Below, piece after piece: positions 6,583 to 20,677 of a stretch of DNA of 21,451 nucleotides. The position numbers were made by a program, and so were the translations under genes. The stretch's first letter is position 1. Each line of letters starts with the position of its first letter. The DNA comes from a virus. Where the stretch lies: IMG/VR virus record IMGVR_UViG_3300027821_000035, positions 1 through 21,451 of that record. The stretch is one strand, 5' to 3'. The notes under the pieces were generated by a model. The model did no database searches and was not told the origin of the DNA. It saw only the letters and a program-made list of their open reading frames with translations.

Positions 6583-7251
6583 TCACACCCAAAATCGCAT
6601 GTAGTGATAGAGCATGTCCTTGACGGTCTGCCCTGCGGTCGCGAGCGGCGTTGAGCCCTGTTGTTTCATCAGCACGTTAGGGTCGAAAAACATCACGCGC
6701 GCATCCTTGTGGCTGATGCTGCGGATGCCTGATGTGAGTTGGCGCTGGTTCCAGATGCGCCACGACCGGATCAGAATTTCGCACGAGGCTTTCAGCGCTG
6801 GCGGGCATTCGTCCGGCAAGTCATAGCCGCCCGTATAGGTCACGCTGATAGGTTCGGACTGACCACCAAACAAACTGAGCTTGCCGGAATGCTCCTCTAG
6901 CTCCCAACCGGGATCGTTGGTTGGATAGGCGAGCGACGGCGTTGAGTTAGTGCGCGGGCAATAGACCGACTCGATGTCGTCCGTCTTGACCGGCCAGTGC
7001 GACAAGTAGACTCGTGGTGAGTCAAGTTCGCGCCACGTCTCCTGCACTTTCTCTTTCGCAAAGCTATGCCCGTCGAGATTGCTGCGATTGCATTGCACGG
7101 CGATGATGTCGGACATCATCGTGATTTGCTTCGCCAACTCCTCATCCTGCGTCGTGTCGGTGTCAGCGATGCCGAGCGCCGCCTTGATCTCCTCCAACGT
7201 CATGAAATCGATTGACGTTGCAGGCGTGATGACTTTGATAATCGAATCCAT
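6583..7251 (-). CDS. Head-tail connector (gp6-like adaptor)
   Basis: A 222-residue protein. The N-terminal pattern MTLEEIKAALGI followed by an acidic stretch and a long helix (DEELAKQITMMSDIIAVQCN) is typical of gp6-like head-tail adaptors. So is the later YTGGYDLPDECPPALKASCE, where 'Y.gGy...P..lk.A' precedes the last helices. These proteins form a ring under the portal. The start ATG at 7251 overlaps the stop of the collagen-like gene by 1 nt (TGATG), showing tight coupling. At about 220 residues it is close to the longer members of this group. Confidence 0.75.
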   Translation of the reverse strand: MDSIIKVITPATSIDFMTLEEIKAALGIADTDTTQDEELAKQITMMSDIIAVQCNRSNLDGHSFAKEKVQETWRELDSPRVYLSHWPVKTDDIESVYCPRTNSTPSLAYPTNDPGWELEEHSGKLSLFGGQSEPISVTYTGGYDLPDECPPALKASCEILIRSWRIWNQRQLTSGIRSISHKDARVMFFDPNVLMKQQGSTPLATAGQTVKDMLYHYMRFWV

Positions 7252-8819
7252 CAGCGCGTCTCGATTTGGAATTGCTCAAACAAGTCGCGGAGATTGAGCG
7301 GCAACGCCTCGGTGCCGTCCGACATCACGGGCGCGACGGTGTAGTTTTCGCGGTCGATCTTCCACGCCAGGATTGTAGGACCAGGCTCGCCACGGTCGCC
7401 GCGCTCGCCGCGTTCACCGGGCGGCCCTTTGATTCCTGGCTTGCCTTGCGCGCCGCCGAAGATTTGCCAGTCGGGACCGGGACACGGGCCGGGGTTGGCC
7501 TTGCGTGCAATAAAGCTCGCGTTGTCACGCGTGACGACATCGAGCGCCGAATAGATCTCCTCGGCATTCCACGTTCCGCATAGCGTCGGCGCGGCTCCGT
7601 TCGCTCCGTCGAGTCCTCGGAAGGCGAGGCCAATCCAATCGGCGTGCGGCGGCGCGCTCGCGGTGTCGCATCGCGCTTGCCACATCGAGCCCTCGTGCAC
7701 GACCACATCGGCGGCGTAGTGCACCTTCCCAGGCTCGTAAGTCTTGGCGATTGGTAGCTTGCCAACCGGACCTTGCGGCCCCGGCTCACCACGCTCACCG
7801 CGTTCGCCCGGTGCGCCGTCCTTGCCGACGATTCCGGGGATGCCCTGCGGCCCCTGCGGACCAGGCTCACCGCGCGCGCCGGGATCTCCGCGCGAACCGT
7901 CCTTGCCGTCGAGCCCATCCTTGCCGCGTATCCCAGGCAAGCCGCGCTCGCCACGGTCGCCCTTCACGCCCTGCGGACCCTGGACGCCCTGCGCCCCGGC
8001 CACGCCTACCTCGCCGCGCTCGCCGATGTAGCCGCGCTCACCCTGCGGCCCCGCTGGACCGATTTCCCCGGCTGGCCCCTGGTCACCCTGCGGCCCAGGC
8101 GCGCCATCGCTCCCACGGTCGCCCTGCGGCCCCGGCAACCCCATCGGACCCGGCTCCCCTGGATCGCCGCGCATGCCTACCGGACCCGGCTCGCCACGCT
8201 CACCCGCCGCGCCACGCTCACCGCGCATTCCGGTTTTGCCGGGGATGCCCTGCAAGCCCGCCTCGCCACGCTCACCGGCTGGCCCAGGCGCGCCGTCCTT
8301 GCCGTCCGCGCCGTCGTGCAAGTCCGCGAGCCGCACCTTGATCATGTCCGCAAGCTCGGTGCGCTGCGCGAGCGCTAGCGACTGCATGTCGGTCATCGTG
8401 CGCGCAACGTCGTCAGAAAAAACGCGGATGTCAGGTGCCGGACCAGGCTCACCGGGCGGCCCCTGCAACCCAGGCGGCCCCGGTTCGCCTTGCGGCCCCG
8501 GATCGCCGCGCTCGCCGATGGTGCCCTGCAAGCCTGCCGGACCCGGCTCGCCTTGCGCGCCAGGTTGTCCGTTGTGCACGTTGGCAAGCCGCAGGGCGAC
8601 TTGATCCGCGATCTCGGCGCGGAGTTGCAGCATTTCGTTGCGCATGTCGGCGATAGCGCGCGCCGCTTCCGACTGGATCAGCAAGCGCTCGCGCTGCCAG
8701 GTGTTGCGCTCCTCGGCAATCACGTGCGCCAGCGACTCGCGGAAGATCTCAGCTAGATAATCGACGCCCGACTCTATCGGCGGCTGCAAGGAGGTTTCGG
8801 ACTTCCCGTTGGATGTCAT
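7251..8819 (-). CDS. Collagen-like virion protein with carbohydrate-binding-like modules
   Basis: A 522-residue protein. Residues about 20-82 form charged helices with heptad character. Three Gly-X-Y blocks lie at about 84-128, 169-353 and 456-481, with typical GEPGPQG and GERGEPG triplets. Residues 129-168 are a helical break. Residues about 359-397 and 413-454 each have the layout Y..g..Y.a.DVV...gs.w.Ar......P..dW, resembling CBM5/12-type carbohydrate-binding modules. The last 40 residues (ILAWKIDRENYTVAPV to FEQFQIETR) are non-collagenous. Such proteins usually form trimeric fibres on phage surfaces, so adhesion or decoration is likely. The ATG at 8819 has AAAGG about 9 nt upstream and lies 71 nt inside the portal gene. 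Function is inferred from domains. Confidence 0.85.
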   Translation of the reverse strand: MTSNGKSETSLQPPIESGVDYLAEIFRESLAHVIAEERNTWQRERLLIQSEAARAIADMRNEMLQLRAEIADQVALRLANVHNGQPGAQGEPGPAGLQGTIGERGDPGPQGEPGPPGLQGPPGEPGPAPDIRVFSDDVARTMTDMQSLALAQRTELADMIKVRLADLHDGADGKDGAPGPAGERGEAGLQGIPGKTGMRGERGAAGERGEPGPVGMRGDPGEPGPMGLPGPQGDRGSDGAPGPQGDQGPAGEIGPAGPQGERGYIGERGEVGVAGAQGVQGPQGVKGDRGERGLPGIRGKDGLDGKDGSRGDPGARGEPGPQGPQGIPGIVGKDGAPGERGERGEPGPQGPVGKLPIAKTYEPGKVHYAADVVVHEGSMWQARCDTASAPPHADWIGLAFRGLDGANGAAPTLCGTWNAEEIYSALDVVTRDNASFIARKANPGPCPGPDWQIFGGAQGKPGIKGPPGERGERGDRGEPGPTILAWKIDRENYTVAPVMSDGTEALPLNLRDLFEQFQIETR

Positions 8820-10191
8820 CGCGGTTGCCTTTCGGCGCTGGTGCGGGCGGCGCGGCTGGTGGCGCTTCCGGCGACGGTGTTGGCGGTGTGATTCCGGGCG
8901 GCGTGCCCTTCGGCGGAATGTTCGCCGCTGCGCTTAACGGGACGACTTGTTGTTGGACTCTCGGCTCGTCGCCGAACTTAACCTCATCGAGCCCTTCCAT
9001 CGCGCGCGCTTCGTTGGGCGCATAGATGCCGCCTTGGACACCGCGCGCCAGTGATTCAATGCGGTCCTTGTGCGCTGATCGCAGCAAGGCTCCGGTATCA
9101 AACTCAACGTATTCGTCGGGCGGTCCTCGGAGGTTGAACAGGACACCGAACGCTTCCTCGATATGGTTGAGCGCGAAGCCGAGCCCCGATGCTATCCAAC
9201 TTTGCATCAGGGTTTCAACCGATGAGTACGGTGTGCCGCCGATGCCGAGAATTTGCAGCGGGACGCGGAACGCTAGCGCGATGTTCTCCTTGCTCATCTT
9301 GGCGATGTCGGCGATGGCCGACTCGCGGCCCGACGCGCCCGAGCCCCACGGGTTTACTTTCAAGCCAGCGGTCAGGATCGGCGTGCCGCCCTGGCGCAAG
9401 CCCTTCGATTGCTCATCCCAACGGTCGCGCAATTGCTGCACTTGTTCCTTGTCCAGCACGAGATCCGTTGAGAGCACGGCGGATGGCCGCGCCTCGTTCA
9501 TGTAGAATTTCATCTGTTGATTGGTGATCGCCGCGCCCAGGCCGATGTCCTGCATCGCTGCATCGAGCGGTGACGTTCCCAACAGCGGGCGCGGCCATTG
9601 CCGGTTGATGTTGAGCCGGATGTGCAGCACGTCGCGCATCGGCACCATGAACATCGGCGAGCTTTCGCCAAACACGCGATTGGCGATCACGTCGTTGCCA
9701 GCGAGTTGATAGAACACGTCCCCGGTTTCCGCGACCAGCGGGCGGCACATGTCCGGGTTCATCATGTGCAATTCGTCAACCTCGTAACGGTCGTTGCGCA
9801 GCGCGAGCGCATAGGCGTTGCCGTTGAGGTACAGCCCCCGAGTCATGTTCATCATGAAATCGGAGATCGACTGGTAATCGTTCGGATAGCGCAGAATGCG
9901 GGAGAGCGCCGAGTTGGCAATGCGCGTGCGTCCGCCTTTGTTGTTGGATTTCCAATGATCGCCAGGGCACATCGCAATCGTTTGCGCGTATGCCGACACG
10001 CATGCCTCAACAATTGCTGATGAGCTTGTTCCGAAAACCGGATCAAAGCCCATCTGCCACCAGTTGAAATAATCGCCCACGCCAGCCGGAAGCCAACCGC
10101 CCGAGATCGGCAATTGCCACGGGCCGGGATGGGAATCCCCCTCACCCTTGCGGATGAGGGGGCTAAGAATGCGCGCTAGAAAGCGGTTCAT
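8749..10191 (-). CDS. Portal protein (HK97 family)
   Basis: A 480-residue protein. It shows the HK97-type portal pattern: SSSAIVEACVSAYAQTIA near residues 56-73, LLGTSPLDAAMQDI near 203-216, a helix 'KENIALAFRVPLQILGIGG' near 301-319, and GGIYAPNEARAMEGL near 387-401. Twelve copies form the ring at one capsid vertex through which DNA is packaged and to which the connectors bind. The C-terminus is extended by a proline-rich tail (about 425-455) and a short helix. The ATG at 10191 lies 1 nt after the stop of the upstream gene, so coupling is likely. Unusually for HK97-like phages, the gene lies downstream of protease and capsid. Confidence 0.95.
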   Translation of the reverse strand: MNRFLARILSPLIRKGEGDSHPGPWQLPISGGWLPAGVGDYFNWWQMGFDPVFGTSSSAIVEACVSAYAQTIAMCPGDHWKSNNKGGRTRIANSALSRILRYPNDYQSISDFMMNMTRGLYLNGNAYALALRNDRYEVDELHMMNPDMCRPLVAETGDVFYQLAGNDVIANRVFGESSPMFMVPMRDVLHIRLNINRQWPRPLLGTSPLDAAMQDIGLGAAITNQQMKFYMNEARPSAVLSTDLVLDKEQVQQLRDRWDEQSKGLRQGGTPILTAGLKVNPWGSGASGRESAIADIAKMSKENIALAFRVPLQILGIGGTPYSSVETLMQSWIASGLGFALNHIEEAFGVLFNLRGPPDEYVEFDTGALLRSAHKDRIESLARGVQGGIYAPNEARAMEGLDEVKFGDEPRVQQQVVPLSAAANIPPKGTPPGITPPTPSPEAPPAAPPAPAPKGNRDDIQREVRNLLAAADRVGRRLSS

Positions 10192-10627: not shown

Positions 10628-12886
10628 TTACCAAGTGACGCCGGTCACCGCAGCCACGACGCCCGGACGACGGATCGTCCAGTTGAGCGGCATGATCAGC
10701 CGCAGCGCCAGCGAGTCGGTCTGCCAGAGCGAGCGAACCGGATCGGCGGGAGCACCAGCAACAATCGGAAGCGGTGCCGTATCCTCCATGTGCAGGGTGG
10801 CTTGGTCGCTCAATTCGAAGCGCGGCCCTTCACCCGTGACGCTCACGAAATCCGCCGAGTCAACGGCAATGACTTCGCCGAGCGGAACGGTGCCCGAGTC
10901 GATGATCGGCCAGCCTTGCAGTTGACCGCGAGAAACTTCGTCTCGGAACGGGAACGCGCTCATCCCAGGCATGGCCGTCAGCATGATTGAATTAACTTGC
11001 TGCGGGTTCATCAGCCAAACCGGGGTTCTGATGTGCCCCTGCGTCGCACTCAGCAACGCGCCGGACACGTTCTTGATGTCTCCAACAAGTGCGTTGAAGC
11101 CGCCACCAGCCGTAGGCGTCAGAGGCGTGACACCGTTGAGCAAACCAGGCGGACGGATCACGGTCGCCGGGTTGGCGTCGAGCAACACCGAGTCGAGCGC
11201 AACCGCCGTGTCCTCTTGGATCGCTTGACGCAGCAAGCCCTCGATTGCTGGAATCGAGTGCTCATCGATTTCGCGGGTCCAAGTGGTGATCACGGCCATT
11301 TTCTTGGGCGTCAGGGTTTGTGACGTGAATTGCCCCTGGCGAACAGGAATCGGCGCGCCTTCACCGACGAACGATCCGGCGATTGTGGGCGTGCGCGAAC
11401 GCGTCGGGATGATGATGCGTCCGGCCCGACCAAACGAGAGCCCGAGCCCGTATCCAGAGAGACGCGGGAACACCGACTTGGGCATCAAGGTTTCCATGAA
11501 CGACGTGACGACTTGTTGGACAAGCTCGGCGGCCCATCCCACAACGGTCGTCATGGCCGGATTGCTCGCGGCCCGCTGCGCCCAATTCAGAAACACCTTG
11601 GTCGCTTCGTCGTCGCCGTAGATCTCCTTGCGCATGTCATCGATGCTGCGCCGATGCACGTGAGCGAACATGGCAACCGTGCCGGCGCGCACCACGTATT
11701 CGAGCGGATCGAGTTTCTTGTTGGGCATCGTGAACGGGCGGCGAGTGCTGCTGCCGTCGTCACGCTGTTCCGGCTGGCGGCGTGCTGGCGGGTTGTCTTG
11801 CGCCGTCACGTTCGCAATGTGCTTCTCCGAATCAATCAACATCGCAAGCGTGCGCTCCTCCTGCACGATCTTGTTGTTGAATTCATTCGTCTTGTTGATT
11901 TGCTCGTCGGTGACATCGCTATCATCGACGCTATTCAAGTGTTCCGCCAGCGCTTCGCGCAAGGCGACGATGTTGGCTTGCTTGTCAGCAATCCGTTGAG
12001 TGAGGGGAGTCATGATGGTTTTCTTTCCATCGGGAGTGCGAGGGGCAGGCTTGCCGGTGACGATGGCCCGCTTGGTCAGGTGTCCCTTGCCAGTCTTGGC
12101 GAACACCAGGCTTTGCGTTTCATCGGAGATCTTCAAAGACTTGGCGACGGAAAGCGCGTTCGGGTTTGCTGGTACTGCTACCAGCGAACACTCGACCAAC
12201 TCCTGCTTGGAGTAGCGCAAGCCGCCGAATGGGTCTTTTGCGTTGAGCGGGACAAAATCAATCGGTTTGAAGCCGACCGACACCGCGCGCAGGATGCCCG
12301 CATCCACCAGCGCACGTATCTCATCGATGCGCGGGCTCGTGCCTTTCGGCGCAAGCTCCAAGTGTCCGCGCAACTCACCGTCCTTGTTGGTCGCGACGTT
12401 GCGCCACAAGCCAATCGGAAAATCGGACTTGTGACCAAACAAAGCGATGGGGTTTTTCTTGAATTGCTTGAGATCCCAACCGGCTGACTCGATGATGTCG
12501 CCCATGCGATCAGGGCTCTCATCGCTCAGAATGAATTCGGTGCCGTCGAGCTTGCCAGCGTGAGTCTTGTGAACCACGCCATCCTTCGGCGAGCGCTGTT
12601 GCCATGCGATCCGGCAACTATCCTCATCGCCGCTTTCCAAGCAATCGTCTAGGAATTCATCGAAGGTGTCGTAATCGTCTGGATCAGGAAGGTCGCCGTT
12701 GTCGTCATCGCGGATGATTGTTGTTTGATGCTTGCCCATGTCGATCTCCTTGTCCTTGTTGCGCCAGATATCGAGGCAGATTGCGACTGCCTGATCCTGA
12801 TCACGCTTGCCGTCGCCCATCATTTCGGGAACGCACCGGGCGCTGAATTCACTTTGGCTTTCGCCTTTGCGCGGCTTCATGGGCAT
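10628..12886 (-). CDS. Fused prohead protease and HK97-fold major capsid protein
   Basis: A 752-residue fusion. Residues 1-44 carry a KPRKGESQSEFSARCVPEMM plus DQAVAICLDIW segment found at the start of some phage head proteins. Residues about 108-250 form an HK97-type prohead protease: SDESPDRMGDIIE, the His of LFGHKSD (H152), the Ser of RAVSVGF (S203), and ELVECSLVAVPANPNALSV with likely acidic partner E232. Residues about 292-360 are a coiled-coil scaffold (delta-like) domain. From about 385 onward comes the capsid: GEGAPIPVRQGQFTSQTLTP then KKMAVITTWTREI, LDSVLLDANP, and the C-terminal SLWQTDSLALRLIMPLNW. The protease should release itself and the scaffold after assembly. The ATG at 12886 has GGAGGG 8 nt upstream. 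Separate genes are more common. Confidence 0.95.
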   Translation of the reverse strand: MPMKPRKGESQSEFSARCVPEMMGDGKRDQDQAVAICLDIWRNKDKEIDMGKHQTTIIRDDDNGDLPDPDDYDTFDEFLDDCLESGDEDSCRIAWQQRSPKDGVVHKTHAGKLDGTEFILSDESPDRMGDIIESAGWDLKQFKKNPIALFGHKSDFPIGLWRNVATNKDGELRGHLELAPKGTSPRIDEIRALVDAGILRAVSVGFKPIDFVPLNAKDPFGGLRYSKQELVECSLVAVPANPNALSVAKSLKISDETQSLVFAKTGKGHLTKRAIVTGKPAPRTPDGKKTIMTPLTQRIADKQANIVALREALAEHLNSVDDSDVTDEQINKTNEFNNKIVQEERTLAMLIDSEKHIANVTAQDNPPARRQPEQRDDGSSTRRPFTMPNKKLDPLEYVVRAGTVAMFAHVHRRSIDDMRKEIYGDDEATKVFLNWAQRAASNPAMTTVVGWAAELVQQVVTSFMETLMPKSVFPRLSGYGLGLSFGRAGRIIIPTRSRTPTIAGSFVGEGAPIPVRQGQFTSQTLTPKKMAVITTWTREIDEHSIPAIEGLLRQAIQEDTAVALDSVLLDANPATVIRPPGLLNGVTPLTPTAGGGFNALVGDIKNVSGALLSATQGHIRTPVWLMNPQQVNSIMLTAMPGMSAFPFRDEVSRGQLQGWPIIDSGTVPLGEVIAVDSADFVSVTGEGPRFELSDQATLHMEDTAPLPIVAGAPADPVRSLWQTDSLALRLIMPLNWTIRRPGVVAAVTGVTW

Positions 12887-13299: not shown

Positions 13300-13536
13300 T
13301 CACCCCTTCGGTTTCTTGACGTGCTCCATCAGCGAGTCGATTTGCTCCGGGCGCAGCCCGAGATCGAGCGCAACCTGGCGGCTCACCGCGTAAGCGGCCT
13401 CGGTGTCGCCGTCGTCTAGGATTGCGTTGTGCAAATTTGCATCGGAGCGCCGTCCGCCTTTGCCGGGATAGAAAAACTCTTTAGCCGGTTCATCAGGCGG
13501 CGGCTTTTTGGCTTGGCTTTTTCCCGACGTAGGCAT
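13300..13536 (-). CDS. Small hypothetical protein
   Basis: A 78-residue protein with a lysine/proline-rich, probably disordered N-terminus. The C-terminal half is helical (DTEAAYAVSRQVALDLGL then PEQIDSLMEHVKK). I recognise no family. The ATG at 13536 gives a 44-nt overlap with the preceding gene; an ATG at 13593 would give 97 residues but a longer overlap. It is coupled to the next gene by a GTGA or short overlap. Confidence 0.6.
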   Translation of the reverse strand: MPTSGKSQAKKPPPDEPAKEFFYPGKGGRRSDANLHNAILDDGDTEAAYAVSRQVALDLGLRPEQIDSLMEHVKKPKG

Positions 13537-15100
13537 TGAACCGGTCCATTGTTTGTTTGTCGCCCAGGTCGATCTCGCCCCACCAGTCAGCATCGATCAG
13601 CAATTTCTTGCCCCACTTGCTATCGGCAATCGCCCATAGCGCTTTCGGGTTGTCGTTGTTGAGCAAGTCGCGCAGCGAGTCGGCGTCCTCGGCGCTCATT
13701 TCGCCGCCGTCGCTGTTGCGCTCCGGTTCGCCTGTCGGCAATTCGTCGTTTTCTTGCGCCCACTTGTATTTGTCGCGGTCGCGCATGCTGTCGAAATATT
13801 CGGCGGCTGACTCGCTTGCTTGATCGTCAACCCATGACGGCGGATCAACGTCGCTGCGATTGCTCTCGGCTTCCTCGTTGAATTTCTCAGTCAACACTGA
13901 AACAATTTCGTCGCGCTGTTCGTCGTTCAACTCAGGCGTCTTGTCCTCATCGATGGTGATCTCAGGATCGCCTCGGCCTTCACCGTACTGATCCTTGTAA
14001 TCCATGCTGATCGCACCGATTAGTTTTTCGGTGTCGATCATTTCCGAAACTTTGACTTGCTGCTCTAGCGGCTTCTGACCAAACAACTCGCCTTGGCGTT
14101 CCTCTCTCACCGTGACGGTTGTCGTCTCATCTTTCAGAACGTCCTCAACCCACTTGCTCTTTTTGCCGAACGGAGTGGCGCTGAATTGATGGACTAGATC
14201 TATCTTGGCCTCGTGCAAATCGCCGCCCTGGTCGCGCCAATTCTCAACGTCGTTGCTATGGATCTCATCGCGGTTCTGTTCGATCCACGCGTCGCGGATG
14301 TGATCTTGCTGAGACGATGACATGTCGTCCCAGGATTCCGCGGTGTAGCCGTCGCCAAGCTCGCCGTGCTCTAGGTCATCGATCTTGCCAGCGAGATAGG
14401 TGCGCAGCGTGCGCCAGCTTTGCCGCGTTGGAACGTAGCCGTAGCGCGCCCAGGCGTGGCCGCCGATGTCGATGTTGGCGTGAACCTCAACCTTGTGCAG
14501 CCCGAGTTGTTGATAGGTCGCGATGTTGCCAGCTAGCATCTGCTTGCCGACACCGTGACCTTGCGCGCTATCCTCTAGTTTGAAATATGCGCTCTCGGCT
14601 TTGTGCTCATCGAAATCGATGTGGCGCGTGTATTCGCCGAGCTTGTCGCCATCCTCATCCAGAATGTAGCCGCGCATTTCGATCTTATCGTCATCGTCGT
14701 CATACTTCATCGTCATCGTGCCCTTGAGCCCGCCCAGGAATTTCTGTTTGAAATCCTCCGGTGCGTCGCGCACGGTGTCGTTCCAGCGCTCAATAAACTT
14801 TTTGCTTTTCTCCTCGTGTTCGGCGCGCGTGCTTGAGTCGAGCATGATGCCCGCCTTGCCGAAATCATCGATCTTGAATTTGCCTTTCTCTTTCGGCGGC
14901 GGCTTCATGTCAGCCGCGATCTCGCCTTGCAGCGCTGCCGCTGGCGCGGCTCCCGCGCTCCCACCTGATCCGCCAGATCCGCCGCCCTCAGTCCACTTGC
15001 CAGTCTCATCGCGCGGCTCGTTGGGATCAAACTTGAACGCCAAGCGAATGGCTTGCCGTTTGATCTCCTGCCAGCGCTGTTGATTAGATCCAATATTCAT
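13493..15100 (-). CDS. Multi-domain protein with shared tag and GNAT-like domain
   Basis: A 535-residue acidic protein. Residues about 22-48 carry the tag KFDPNEPRDETGKWTEGG plus a GGS linker, shared with the upstream gene product. Residues about 165-225 resemble a GNAT acetyltransferase core: YFKLEDSAQGHGVGKQML (the Q-x-x-G-x-G acetyl-CoA loop motif) and then LGLHKVEVHANIDIGGHAWA followed by RYGYVP. The rest is charged and helical (DDDDDK near 135-139, then many acidic segments), ending with WWGEIDLGDKQTMDRF and a short basic tail. Similar tagged proteins occur in phages as 'polyvalent' or head-morphogenesis-associated proteins. Acetylation of a host or virion target is possible but unproven. 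ATG at 15100 is chosen over an in-frame TTG at 15118; it overlaps the upstream stop by 17 nt. Confidence 0.8.
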   Translation of the reverse strand: MNIGSNQQRWQEIKRQAIRLAFKFDPNEPRDETGKWTEGGGSGGSGGSAGAAPAAALQGEIAADMKPPPKEKGKFKIDDFGKAGIMLDSSTRAEHEEKSKKFIERWNDTVRDAPEDFKQKFLGGLKGTMTMKYDDDDDKIEMRGYILDEDGDKLGEYTRHIDFDEHKAESAYFKLEDSAQGHGVGKQMLAGNIATYQQLGLHKVEVHANIDIGGHAWARYGYVPTRQSWRTLRTYLAGKIDDLEHGELGDGYTAESWDDMSSSQQDHIRDAWIEQNRDEIHSNDVENWRDQGGDLHEAKIDLVHQFSATPFGKKSKWVEDVLKDETTTVTVREERQGELFGQKPLEQQVKVSEMIDTEKLIGAISMDYKDQYGEGRGDPEITIDEDKTPELNDEQRDEIVSVLTEKFNEEAESNRSDVDPPSWVDDQASESAAEYFDSMRDRDKYKWAQENDELPTGEPERNSDGGEMSAEDADSLRDLLNNDNPKALWAIADSKWGKKLLIDADWWGEIDLGDKQTMDRFNAYVGKKPSQKAAA

Positions 15101-16007
15101 CAGCAAACACTTTGCCAACCGGGATCATGAATTCCTTCGGCGCTTCGCTGGCTGGTTTCTTGCCCTTGCCGCCCGTGAATTTCTCGGCTTCCGCGATGAG
15201 CTTGGTGATCGAAATGTTGACGCGCGCCACCTTCACGTTCTTGTCGCCCTTCAACTTGTTGTCCTTCGCGTCCTGGCCTAACTGACCGGCCCAGGTGTGG
15301 TGACCGTCCAGAATGTAATCGTCCTTCGAAATAACGATCCGCTTGTAGAAGCCTTCCTTTTTGATCCGCTTCATCGAGGCCGCGACTTTCGCGCCGCTGA
15401 TCTCATCTTGCGTCGCGCGCAGATGCCGCGCTTGCTCCTTTTCCTTTTCGACTTTGTAGCCCTGGCTTTTCAAATATTTGATGAACGCGCCGGTTTGCTT
15501 GGCCGGGATCACCGGCATTTCCACGCGCGGAATTCCTTTGCTCTCGGCGCAAAACAGGTTGGTGCCGCTGATGCTCACGTTGCAGAGATTGAACACGGGC
15601 GCAGTCTCGCCTTGCTCGGCCATTTTCGCGGCGGTCTTGCCGAGCAACTTGATCAGCGTCGAGACTTGCTTGGGCTGACTCAGTTCCACCTTGCGATCTT
15701 CAAACAAAGCGCGCTGCGCATCGTAAACGTCTTTTGTTTGAATGACGCCGTGCTCATCGACGTAAGCGCCCTTCGAATAGCCTTCGCCCGGATGCTTGCC
15801 CTTGCCGCCAGGTTTGCCGCCGCTCGGTTTGTCGCTGCCGCCGCTACCGCCGCTACCGCCGCCATCGGTCCACTTGCCGGATTCGTCGCGCGGTTCGTTC
15901 TCATCGTATTTGACGTTGCGCTCGGCGCGTGCGCGCACGACTGCCCATCGCTGTGCAGGCGATAGCAGGCTTTCCGCCCGCTCGCGGATGGTCCGCCAGT
16001 CGTCCAT
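15084..16007 (-). CDS. Tagged protein with ParB-like DGHH domain
   Basis: A 307-residue protein. Residues 33-58 carry KYDENEPRDESGKWTDGG and a GGS-rich linker, the same tag as in the next gene. Residues about 200-275 look like a phage ParB-like nuclease domain: IVISKDDYILDGHHTWAG (ILDGHH.W at about 232-239), then VKVARVNISITKLIAEAE. This layout, a strand followed by LDGHH and W, is typical of ParB-like domains in phage proteins, which may bind or cleave DNA or bind nucleotides. A small segment LCNVSISGTNLFCAESKGIP precedes it. The ATG at 16007 follows the previous stop by 6 nt. Catalytic activity is not demonstrated. Confidence 0.75.
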   Translation of the reverse strand: MDDWRTIRERAESLLSPAQRWAVVRARAERNVKYDENEPRDESGKWTDGGGSGGSGGSDKPSGGKPGGKGKHPGEGYSKGAYVDEHGVIQTKDVYDAQRALFEDRKVELSQPKQVSTLIKLLGKTAAKMAEQGETAPVFNLCNVSISGTNLFCAESKGIPRVEMPVIPAKQTGAFIKYLKSQGYKVEKEKEQARHLRATQDEISGAKVAASMKRIKKEGFYKRIVISKDDYILDGHHTWAGQLGQDAKDNKLKGDKNVKVARVNISITKLIAEAEKFTGGKGKKPASEAPKEFMIPVGKVFADEYWI

Positions 16008-16490: not shown

Positions 16491-17042
16491 TTACTTAGGT
16501 TGCGGCCTGCCCGTGTAGTCAATCGGCGGCCAAACCTCGGGACCACCAACTTCTACGCAAATAAATTTCCAGCCGAATTCGGGCACGAAACACAGAACCC
16601 AAAACTTGCCTTGGGCACCGGGAGCAACGGGCGGCCAAATAGTCCCCGCAGGAGGAGACGGCAATTGACCGGGTTGCCCGCCGTCGCCAGTCGCAGGCGG
16701 CACCGGAGCAATCGGATGACTCGGCGTCGGTCCCGGCCAGATGCCAGGAGGCGGACGCGGAATCGCAATCGGATGGCTCGGCCTTCCGGCCCAACCACCA
16801 CCAGGCAAGCCCTGATCAGGATGCAAGCCGCCACCCGGTAAGCCTTGATCCGGGTAATAGCCGCCACCTGGCAAGCCCTGATCGGGATGAGCGCCGCCAC
16901 CCGGCAAGCCCTGGTCAGGATGTTCACCACCCCAACCTGGCAAGCCCTGATCGGGATGCTCGCCGCCTACGCCAAAGCCCGGATCGACGGGACGACCGGG
17001 ACGCCTATCGCTAACTCTCAACCATCCAGATACGAACGGCAT
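16491..17042 (-). CDS. Proline/glycine-rich protein with 11-residue tandem repeats
   Basis: A 183-residue protein. Residues about 26-81 are five copies of GG.HPDQGLPG (one starts GGYYPDQGLPG; the first has an extra W), with near-identical DNA units of 33 bases. A proline-rich middle follows (SHPIAIPRPPPGIWPG and similar). The C-terminus is a more ordered segment: APGAQGKFWVLCFVPEFGWK then FICVEVGGPEVWPPIDY. AGAGG precedes the ATG at 17042 by about 7 nt. I recall comparable 'HPDQGLPG' proteins in rhizobial phages, but no function is known. A flexible surface or linker protein is one reading. Confidence 0.75.
   Translation of the reverse strand: MPFVSGWLRVSDRRPGRPVDPGFGVGGEHPDQGLPGWGGEHPDQGLPGGGAHPDQGLPGGGYYPDQGLPGGGLHPDQGLPGGGWAGRPSHPIAIPRPPPGIWPGPTPSHPIAPVPPATGDGGQPGQLPSPPAGTIWPPVAPGAQGKFWVLCFVPEFGWKFICVEVGGPEVWPPIDYTGRPQPK
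16800..16967 (-). repeat. Coding tandem repeats (33-nt units)
   Basis: Five head-to-tail units encode GG.HPDQGLPG. Adjacent copies share most bases and differ mainly in the codon before HPD/YPD. The regular length and frame preservation point to expansion and contraction by recombination or slippage. It is not a CRISPR array: there are no unique spacers and it is fully coding. Confidence 0.8.
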
Positions 17043-18895: not shown

Positions 18896-19070
18896 CGGAA
18901 GCCTCCCGCTCTAAACACTGATCAAGCATGTTGATCGCTTGGCACGCGCCACAAACAAACTGATAGCCGCTGTTGGCAATTATCTGATCGACGTTCGCAT
19001 CAGTCATTCGGTGCGGACGCTCATCGTCGCCAACACGTCCGCACTTTTGGCACCGCACTAGAATTGCCAT
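18849..19070 (-). CDS. Zinc-ribbon protein downstream of terminase
   Basis: A 73-residue protein with CxxC pairs at C7/C10 (RCQKCG) and C40/C43 (VCGACQ), giving a probable zinc ribbon, followed by a charged helix. The ATG at 19070 overlaps the terminase stop by 1 nt (TGATG). The longer frame starting at 19235 lies within terminase and is discarded. Function unknown; a nucleic-acid or terminase partner role is plausible. Confidence 0.75.
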   Translation of the reverse strand: MAILVRCQKCGRVGDDERPHRMTDANVDQIIANSGYQFVCGACQAINMLDQCLEREASDGDKLVSNRDATRER

Positions 19071-20677
19071 CAGGCTATCATTGCGTCGATGTCTACCGGC
19101 TTGCTGCGGCGATTGATCGCGAGATTGAGCGCCATCGCGAGAGCAACAATCGCGTCGATGCGTCCGTTGCTGCGGCCCTTGTCGAATTTGCGTCCGCCCG
19201 CTGCGTCGCGCGAGACAACCGCGTTCGCTGCGCACCAGGCGAGCACCGGATGCCCGCCGTGCCGCAGATTGCGTTGAGCAACAAGTCGCTCAACAACATC
19301 GACCGCAGCGGTCATGTCCTTGAAGCCCTGGCCCATCGGCTCTAGCGGAACGCGACACCCGATAGCGTCAAGCTCGCGCTGTACCTCGGCCATGCGCCAG
19401 CGGTCGAACGCCAGCGACTCGATTTTCGTGATGCCGTTGATCTCGGCGATCTTGTGCGCAATCGCCTTTGGATCGGTCGAGTGACCGGCCATGATCAGGT
19501 CGCCGCTGCGTACCCAGGAATCGTAGGGCGCGCGGTCAACGTCGCCGCGCTCTTTCGGGTTACCTGGCAACCAACAAATCGGCTTGGCGTGATAGACGCC
19601 TTTCGGATCTCCCCACACGATCACCAGCGCGGTCAGATCCTTGGTCGATCCGAGATCGAGCCCCGCGTACACCCGCGCGCCTGCCGGGATCTCGGCCTTG
19701 TCGGCGCATTCGTTCCATTGCCGTTGATCCACGAATCGCGCCTCTGCCGCTACTCGTTGGTTCAAGATCAAATTTCGGAACGCGTTTTCCTGCGCTGGCA
19801 TGCGCTGCGCTTGCTTGGCCAAGCGCTTCACGTCATCGAGCGAACGAAAGTCGTTGAGCGCCGGGTTGGCAATCTCCCAGGTCGCTTTTTTCCACGGGTC
19901 CGCATCGGGCGGCGCGGCGTACAGCGTCAGATGAAACGCCGTATCCGAAACTTGCTTGTGATTGATCTTGAGCCCGTAGTCGATCAGTTGCGACATCGGT
20001 GCAAAATCGTCCGCAGCTTGTGTGCTGATGACCAGCAACAGCGGTTCCTTGCGCGCGCCCATCGCACTGTCCATAGCATCGTACAACGCGCGCCCGCTCG
20101 CCTGCCCAAGCTCATCATAAACAACAAACGACGGGTTTAGCCCCATCTTGGTTTTTGCTTCCGCAGTCAGCGCCGCATAGGTCGAGCCGTTGTGCACATC
20201 CTGAATTTCCTTGCGGAAGCGAATGATGTTGGTGCGTGACGAAAGCCAGGTGTGCATGTCGATCAGCGCGACCATTTCGGCGAAAATCTTGCCAGCTTGG
20301 AAGCGATCATTGGCGCACGAATAAACCTCGCCGCGAAACTCACTTTCTGGTCCGCACAGGTGGCAGAGCGCCAGCGCCGCCGCGAGTTGGGTTTTTCCGT
20401 TTTTGCGGCCCATCGACATAATCGCCGTGCGGACCATGCGCTTGTTGTTCTTGTCGGTCGCGTAGACCGCTTCGATGAATTTTTTCTGCCAGTCGCGCAG
20501 TTTGAGCTTTTTGTGAGAATCCGGCCCCGACGTGACGCTCAACGATTGGCAGAACGCGATCACCTTCCCCGCACGCGTCAGCCCAGGTGCTTCCCACGGT
20601 AGCGACCAGTTACGTGTTTGCTCCGCTTCCTCGCCGCGCTCGGCTAGCGTCTTAGCTCCTATGCCACGTAGGCCCAT
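19070..20677 (-). CDS. terL: Terminase large subunit
   Basis: A 535-residue packaging motor protein of the Terminase_1 (HK97-type) group. The ATPase part has Walker A GRKNGKT (about 90-96), Walker B FVVYDE (about 184-189) and a coupling motif LLLVISTQ (about 213-220). The nuclease part has its acidic residues in GLDLGSTKDLTALVIVW (D341), LAFDRWRM (D425) and GRIDAIVALAMA (D508), the RNase H-like triad. It cuts concatemers and pumps DNA through the portal. The ATG at 20677 lies within the end of the zinc-ribbon gene, with a weak ribosome binding site, suggesting coupling. No small terminase gene was recognised in the window. Confidence 0.97.
   Translation of the reverse strand: MGLRGIGAKTLAERGEEAEQTRNWSLPWEAPGLTRAGKVIAFCQSLSVTSGPDSHKKLKLRDWQKKFIEAVYATDKNNKRMVRTAIMSMGRKNGKTQLAAALALCHLCGPESEFRGEVYSCANDRFQAGKIFAEMVALIDMHTWLSSRTNIIRFRKEIQDVHNGSTYAALTAEAKTKMGLNPSFVVYDELGQASGRALYDAMDSAMGARKEPLLLVISTQAADDFAPMSQLIDYGLKINHKQVSDTAFHLTLYAAPPDADPWKKATWEIANPALNDFRSLDDVKRLAKQAQRMPAQENAFRNLILNQRVAAEARFVDQRQWNECADKAEIPAGARVYAGLDLGSTKDLTALVIVWGDPKGVYHAKPICWLPGNPKERGDVDRAPYDSWVRSGDLIMAGHSTDPKAIAHKIAEINGITKIESLAFDRWRMAEVQRELDAIGCRVPLEPMGQGFKDMTAAVDVVERLVAQRNLRHGGHPVLAWCAANAVVSRDAAGGRKFDKGRSNGRIDAIVALAMALNLAINRRSKPVDIDAMIA

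Follow-up and report, generated by a model that had tools for sequence, protein, structure and literature searches.

A short conserved peptide tag on diverse effector-like modules near phage head genes, a candidate signal for head cargo

The cargo of encapsulins carries a short targeting peptide, and the capsid targeting sequence (CTS) of phage T4 is cleaved off during head maturation, the T4 prohead protease cutting at [LI]-x-E. The CTS is one short conserved peptide placed on diverse counter-defence head proteins, of which IPI* is injected (PMC3012670), and in encapsulins enzymes are loaded by a dedicated route into a shell of the HK97 fold (PMC8346489). In the MuF polymorphic toxins of temperate phages a phage head protein serves as the delivery part for a variable C-terminal toxin (PMC5576092), and polyvalent proteins include ParB domains of the DdrB-like kind (PMC5512222). 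That effectors are packaged in heads and are fused to MuF and portal proteins is already known, and proteins that enter the host with the phage DNA are known for few phages. What appears to be new is a shared tag that joins such effectors; its strings, searched in open-access full texts, led to no phage paper and to no description of the tag, although absence there is no proof.

Like the T4 CTS, the tag is a short conserved peptide that precedes diverse parts (at least 29 Pfam families), and the tagged proteins are putative internal proteins. Unlike the CTS, it occurs in many other phage types, has a different sequence, and is not restricted to the N terminus, being found also behind portal, MuF and protease domains; the cut site [LI]xE is absent from its consensus K[FY][DSN]P[DSN]QPRDExG[RK]WT. 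Because N-terminal position and T4 cut-site consensus both fail, we do not class the tag as a T4-type CTS. It differs from encapsulin cargo peptides in sequence, in position and in viral delivery, and there is no encapsulin here. As in the MuF toxins, tag fusions pair a phage head protein with a variable C-terminal toxin, but what stays constant here is a peptide of some 20-25 residues, placed after any of many delivery parts or after none. With the polyvalent proteins (PMC5512222) there are overlapping payloads (ART, ParB, GNAT), a late-gene context and fusion to MuF and portal proteins in common, and gene 1 of the pair described below has the ParB/sulfiredoxin fold of their DdrB-like ParB domains. 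The proteins described below are nonetheless small, with one or two domains each (gene 1 has one); more than one effector domain per polypeptide is seen in their relatives L194 and L211, and in L125. In the parts of PMC5512222 and PMC9503650 considered, domains and fusions are described with no shared tag between them.

A tagged gene pair among head genes

The window is a stretch of viral DNA of 21,451 nucleotides (IMG/VR record IMGVR_UViG_3300027821_000035, positions 1 to 21,451). A first-pass annotation had proposed that two adjacent genes in it begin with the same tag, and this is borne out by two minus-strand ORFs that share K[YF]D[EP]NEPRDE[ST]GKWT[DE]GGGSGGSGGS, the only two copies of the tag in the window. 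The features of the pair and its surroundings are as follows.

15084..16007, minus strand: gene 1, tag plus ParB/Srx-like module, 307 aa (ORF; relatives; phrog_2859, E 4e-27; ParB/Srx fold)
15918..15998, minus strand: predicted N-terminal helices of gene 1, aa 4-30 (AlphaFold model)
15834..15911, minus strand: tag 1, KYDENEPRDESGKWTDGGGSGGSGGS, aa 33-58 of the 307-aa ORF (sequence; disordered in the model)
15168..15791, minus strand: ParB/Srx-like domain of gene 1, about aa 73-280, motif ILDGHHTWA (28-sequence alignment; Foldseek to ParB-N and sulfiredoxin)
13493..15118, minus strand: gene 2, tag plus GNAT plus acidic helical C-terminal domain, 541 aa from TTG (ORF; relatives)
15041..15100, minus strand: predicted N-terminal helix of gene 2 (AlphaFold model, low to moderate confidence)
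14957..15034, minus strand: tag 2, KFDPNEPRDETGKWTEGGGSGGSGGS, aa 29-54 of the 541-aa ORF (sequence; pLDDT under 50)
14384..14872, minus strand: GNAT domain of gene 2 (Foldseek; Pfam Acetyltransf_7 only at E 0.15)
13526..14383, minus strand: acidic, mostly helical C-terminal domain of gene 2 (model; relatives)
19070..20677, minus strand: terminase large subunit, upstream of the tagged pair (PF20441, E 1e-31; PF03354, E 7e-21)
10628..12886, minus strand: prohead protease (S78) fused to the major capsid protein (PF04586, E 1.5e-4; PF05065, E 3e-9; phrog_617, E 2e-78)
8749..10191, minus strand: portal protein (PF04860, E 8e-66)

The tagged pair is placed between the terminase gene and the gene of the protease-major capsid protein (MCP) fusion, with the portal gene beyond the latter. 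Gene 2 probably starts at the ATG at 15100 rather than at the TTG, and overlaps the end of gene 1. Neither window protein matches PF04233 (MuF). Elsewhere in the window, the N-terminus of the protease-MCP fusion (12740-12886, minus strand) is a short cysteine module, GESQSEFSARCVPEMMGDGKRDQDQAVAIC, that also opens ORFs of similar size in three other stretches (L130, L199 and L205); a 522-aa ORF just after the portal gene (7251-8819, minus strand) has long collagen-like G-x-y repeats; and a 33/66-bp tandem repeat at 16798-16967 lies within an ORF and gives repeated HPDQGLPGGG-like units.

When the gene 1 protein was searched against the record, gene 2 was matched over residues 16-59 only (64% identity, E 2e-14), and because the match is confined to this segment the remainders of the two proteins are considered unrelated. 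The codons of the two tag copies differ at many shared residues, which rules out a recent duplication or recombination of the two copies at the DNA level and points to selection on the peptide, the likeness being kept at the level of protein. The Gly-Ser part of tag 1 is a 9-bp repeat.

AlphaFold models of gene 1 show helices at aa 4-13 and 17-30 before the tag (pLDDT about 80 for aa 1-20 and 65 for aa 21-30), and that of gene 2 a helix at aa 2-26; the tag and the Gly-Ser linker are disordered in both models, mostly with pLDDT under 50. The short helical segment that had been noted ahead of the tag is thus predicted in the window pair, but it is not a conserved part of the tag generally. Across 92 stand-alone cases the leaders are variable and helix-like, with a proline plus glycine content of 0.098 upstream versus 0.179 downstream of the tag, and they do not support an amphipathic helix as a conserved element of the tag (amphipathicity z 0.06).

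The guesses that gene 1 is ParB-like, from its DGHH motif, and gene 2 GNAT-like both agree with the Foldseek results. Of the 14 best matches of gene 1, 13 are structures of ParB/Noc proteins or of sulfiredoxin, with a top probability of 0.98 and a lowest E of 0.03. R161 of this module, a candidate for the conserved active-site arginine of DdrB-like ParB domains, is invariant in an alignment of 28 sequences. The 50 matches listed for gene 2 are acetyltransferases with probabilities of 0.99-1.00, the match by sequence being weak. Because no match of either window model reaches a Foldseek E under 0.001, both fold calls rely on the consistency of the matches.

Conservation of the tag and the modules that it joins

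A degenerate DNA pattern for QPRD..GxWT was found in at least 120 stretches of IMG/VR, and the EPRD form, which is that of the window, in 31 stretches; another form of the pattern gave 46 stretches in a bacterial genome collection. The QPRD, EPRD and HPRD forms occupy the same place in the alignment of ParB modules and are therefore variants of one element, with the general consensus K[FY][DSN]P[DSN][QEH]PRDExG[RK][WF]TxGGGG. Among the matches listed, the 164 alignable, non-redundant tagged ORF segments of the viral scan, which favoured the QPRD..G..WT form and so does not yield unbiased frequencies, have the order K at -6, F/Y at -5, D/S/N, P/E, QPRD, E/D, a free position, G, R/K, W, T and a glycine run. 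Since residues outside the search pattern are also conserved, with [FY] at -5 in 131 and K at -6 in 56 of these 164 segments, the tag is more than a chance resemblance. A 33-position profile recovers it in 49 of 50 long records among the matches listed, with up to 12 copies in one, but these records were picked for carrying the tag and the proportion is not an unbiased rate. Of 172 tag positions among the matches listed, 78 lie more than 120 aa into an ORF with no earlier tag and 28 follow another tag; many further tags, the window's two included, are N-terminal. A search of solved structures gave one weak match, 9rku, a 'putative tail biosynthetic protein' (E 0.38).

Two sets of proteins carry related but different strings. 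Gln/Glu-rich, scaffold-like proteins in L022, L044, L060, L072, L088 and L104 have GQPRDE[RQ]GRWT with no aromatic residue at -5, possibly a related element on scaffolding proteins. In Nocardia phage P3.1 (L124:5246-5816) two adjacent small proteins after the portal have MARNYKRDG[KR]GRFAK, a shorter RD..GRF form of the tag.

The tag had been regarded from the outset as a reusable element on effector modules, to be checked by listing the domains attached to it. This was done for the viral matches listed, and the idea is strongly supported: many unrelated modules stand behind the tag, at least 29 Pfam families match the parts there, and modules occur with and without fusion partners. The diversity of the attached parts rules out that the tag belongs to one fixed domain. 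Upstream parts among the matches listed (n=126) match, by Pfam, the portal families PF04860 (20), PF06381 (7) and Portal_Mu (4), as well as MuF (5) and S78 (2); by PHROG, the portal family phrog_2662 is matched by 27. Among the upstream parts there is also one with a match to the anti-CBASS protein Acb1 (E 2.5e-41). Downstream parts (n=150, again among the matches listed) include ADPrib_exo_Tox (15), ART-PolyVal (6) and Zeta_toxin (5) in Pfam, and, by Pfam and NCBIfam, GNAT, ParB_N/Srx, CDI-type, colicin E5, REase and deamidase toxins; 2'-5' ligase-like and topoisomerase IB parts are also present.

The arrangements of the window modules in other records suggest how they are exchanged. The ParB module recurs in 29 ORFs and the GNAT module in nine, nearly all of them tagged. 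The two modules are separate overlapping genes in the window and in L190, and are joined in one ORF as tag-ParB-tag-GNAT in L194 and L188; in L211, L214 and L200 what comes after the ParB module is a tag and then a relative of the window's C-terminal domain, which elsewhere also stands behind tags without a GNAT domain. ParB homology begins 2-32 aa behind the tag in 17 of the 29 relatives. These fused and separate arrangements, together with homology that starts behind the tag, lead us to regard the tag plus module as the unit of exchange.

One polyprotein is a viral ORF of 2912 aa (L125:1659-10394, minus strand) in which nine tags lie about 300 aa apart, separating what read from sequence as seven related ADP-ribosyltransferase-like and two metallopeptidase-like modules. 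The seven ART-like modules are 41-50% identical and unrelated modules 16-22%, yet the tags of the latter are 62-88% identical, and internal tags are therefore kept. This bears on the suggestion that the tag is a functionless flexible linker carried along by recombinational domain swapping, which its position at module borders ahead of a Gly/Ser-rich stretch would suit. We consider this quite unlikely, as a mere linker would not keep PRD..G[RK][WF] and the aromatic at -5 across phyla, and as the window copies have diverged codons and tags between unrelated modules stay alike.

Head-gene context and the proposed role of the tag

Where a portal or protease gene could be detected (27 records), tags are closer to these genes than under rotation (P 0.0002 with circular and 0.009 with linear distances), and all 92 tags are on the strand of these genes. 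Cultured phages provide further instances, for which short tblastn queries against named phages (E about 0.1-10) served as leads only and the sequences were then read directly. In Pseudomonas phage Orimi01, gp4 is a single chain of portal, HPRSDDGKF and ART, and in Faecalibacterium phage FP_Brigit gp30 has the order portal, NUDIX, HPRDENGQF and C-terminus. The tag is near the N terminus of Gordonia phage Forza gp78, whose gene adjoins and follows that of the portal, and of Mycobacterium phage Onyinye gp16, two genes before the terminase; in Mycobacterium phage Damien gp10, which starts MSFNPRQPRDRFGRW, it is at the very N terminus. The ParB module is also similar to segments within large proteins, from F116-like and other phages, that are annotated as structural, DarB-like or PLxRFG.

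Fusion to portal, MuF and protease proteins, the closeness to head genes, the shared strand and the resemblance of the ParB part to these large phage proteins all favour a role in the head, and we think it likely that the tag is a head-cargo signal. Tagged proteins might instead be no cargo at all but assembly factors, or accessory proteins, whose genes just happen to lie in the head operon; some tagged toxins lie in bacterial genomes unlinked to head genes, as this would predict, but the many phages in which the tag is joined directly to a portal or MuF protein make it highly improbable.

A mechanism can be proposed by analogy with the T4 CTS. The effector behind the tag would enter the procapsid either on its own or fused to the end of a portal, MuF or protease subunit; the disordered tag peptide would be recognised within the assembling head and cut there during maturation, and the cut would free the downstream module from the portal, from its polyprotein neighbour or from a short N-terminal leader, so that the effector could later be injected with the DNA. 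We infer loading, cleavage and injection, the context lending circumstantial support to packaging and injection. Cleavage of the tag during head maturation is close to evenly balanced in our estimate, tilting slightly against, and the combined model, in which the tag would both load and be cut, has at best an even chance.

What speaks for the combination is that it would account for three settings of the tag. Behind a portal there is no need for loading, but a portal-bound enzyme needs release before it can be injected; at the very N terminus there is nothing to release, but the protein needs bringing in; and within polyproteins internal tags are kept although one loading signal would suffice. 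A peptide that only docks on a head component (the inner face of the capsid, the scaffold or the protease) and is never cut, like the peptides of encapsulin cargo, would agree with Damien gp10 and Onyinye gp16, where almost nothing precedes the tag, and with co-occurrence of the tag with several protease families and its presence in records where none was found. Docking of this kind leaves unexplained why tags follow portals, proteins that the head already contains, and why nine tags are kept within one polypeptide, and we hold it to be unlikely.

Loading followed by cutting faces difficulties of its own. A prohead protease was recognised in only 20 of the 50 tagged records (S78 in 12, DUF2213 in seven, Mu-like in one, ClpP-like in none), a search of four families rather than of all known ones in records that are often fragments, and this weakens the proposal. 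A single partner protease for the tag is not supported, as several families co-occur with it and none was recognised in other records. A 13-residue motif conserved across several protease families would be unusual for a plain cleavage site, and in Damien gp10 a cut at the N-terminal tag would free nothing. The tag could act at a later stage, after injection, as the start of unfolding through the tail or as a conserved host protease site that separates effectors in the target cell; this suits N-terminal and internal tags alike, and a host partner that is universal could explain why it is conserved in phages of Actinobacteria, Firmicutes and Proteobacteria. It offers no reason for tags behind virion-retained portals unless such fusions are cut earlier, and we rate it as very unlikely.

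If the tag does mark cargo, candidate injected effectors, many of them unannotated, could be listed from sequence across many phages and prophages, and the tag would suggest an easy means of packing proteins of choice into phage heads. Toxin delivery by gene transfer agents would also become an idea open to testing.

Gene transfer agents and tagged toxin-like genes in bacteria

In Blastochloris sulfoviridis (L175:5435-6612) and a Rhizobiales MAG (L177:5212-6350) two genes, one toxin-like and tagged and the other with DUF2019 (E 9e-31 and 3e-29, respectively), sit among genes for TerL, portal, S78 protease and MCP. In both, the contig also has DUF2460, about 8-10 kb downstream of the portal, and another genome has a portal with the tag in a 712-aa ORF and DUF2460 about 8 kb downstream. 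This gene order with DUF2460 we take to mark RcGTA-type clusters. Within a Rhizobiales sample, and leaving aside genomes picked beforehand, DUF2460 is present in 7 of 7 tag-bearing genomes versus 251 of 397 overall (hypergeometric 0.04). The sequences and the gene pairing suggest toxin and immunity roles for the tagged toxin-like genes and their DUF2019 partners, and the tagged genes of these two clusters are possible toxin cargo of gene transfer agents.

The presence of these pairs inside two alphaproteobacterial GTA-type head clusters favours the head-cargo role, which is weakened in turn by the many alphaproteobacterial tagged toxin-like genes that are not linked to a portal gene. A broader proposal, and one that we find somewhat doubtful, is that the tag constitutes a near-universal loading-and-release code for the protein cargo of tailed phages and gene transfer agents, across bacterial phyla and head-protease families. 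Were it true, any effector, toxin or polyprotein could ride in the virion, and alphaproteobacterial gene transfer agents would be toxin-delivery particles with cognate immunity genes.

Stand-alone tagged toxin-like genes are followed directly by a small DUF2019-like gene in L136, L150 and L168, and by a small gene of another family in L139, L144, L145 and L158; most contigs of both sets are without a portal match. The small genes that follow are likely to be immunity genes.
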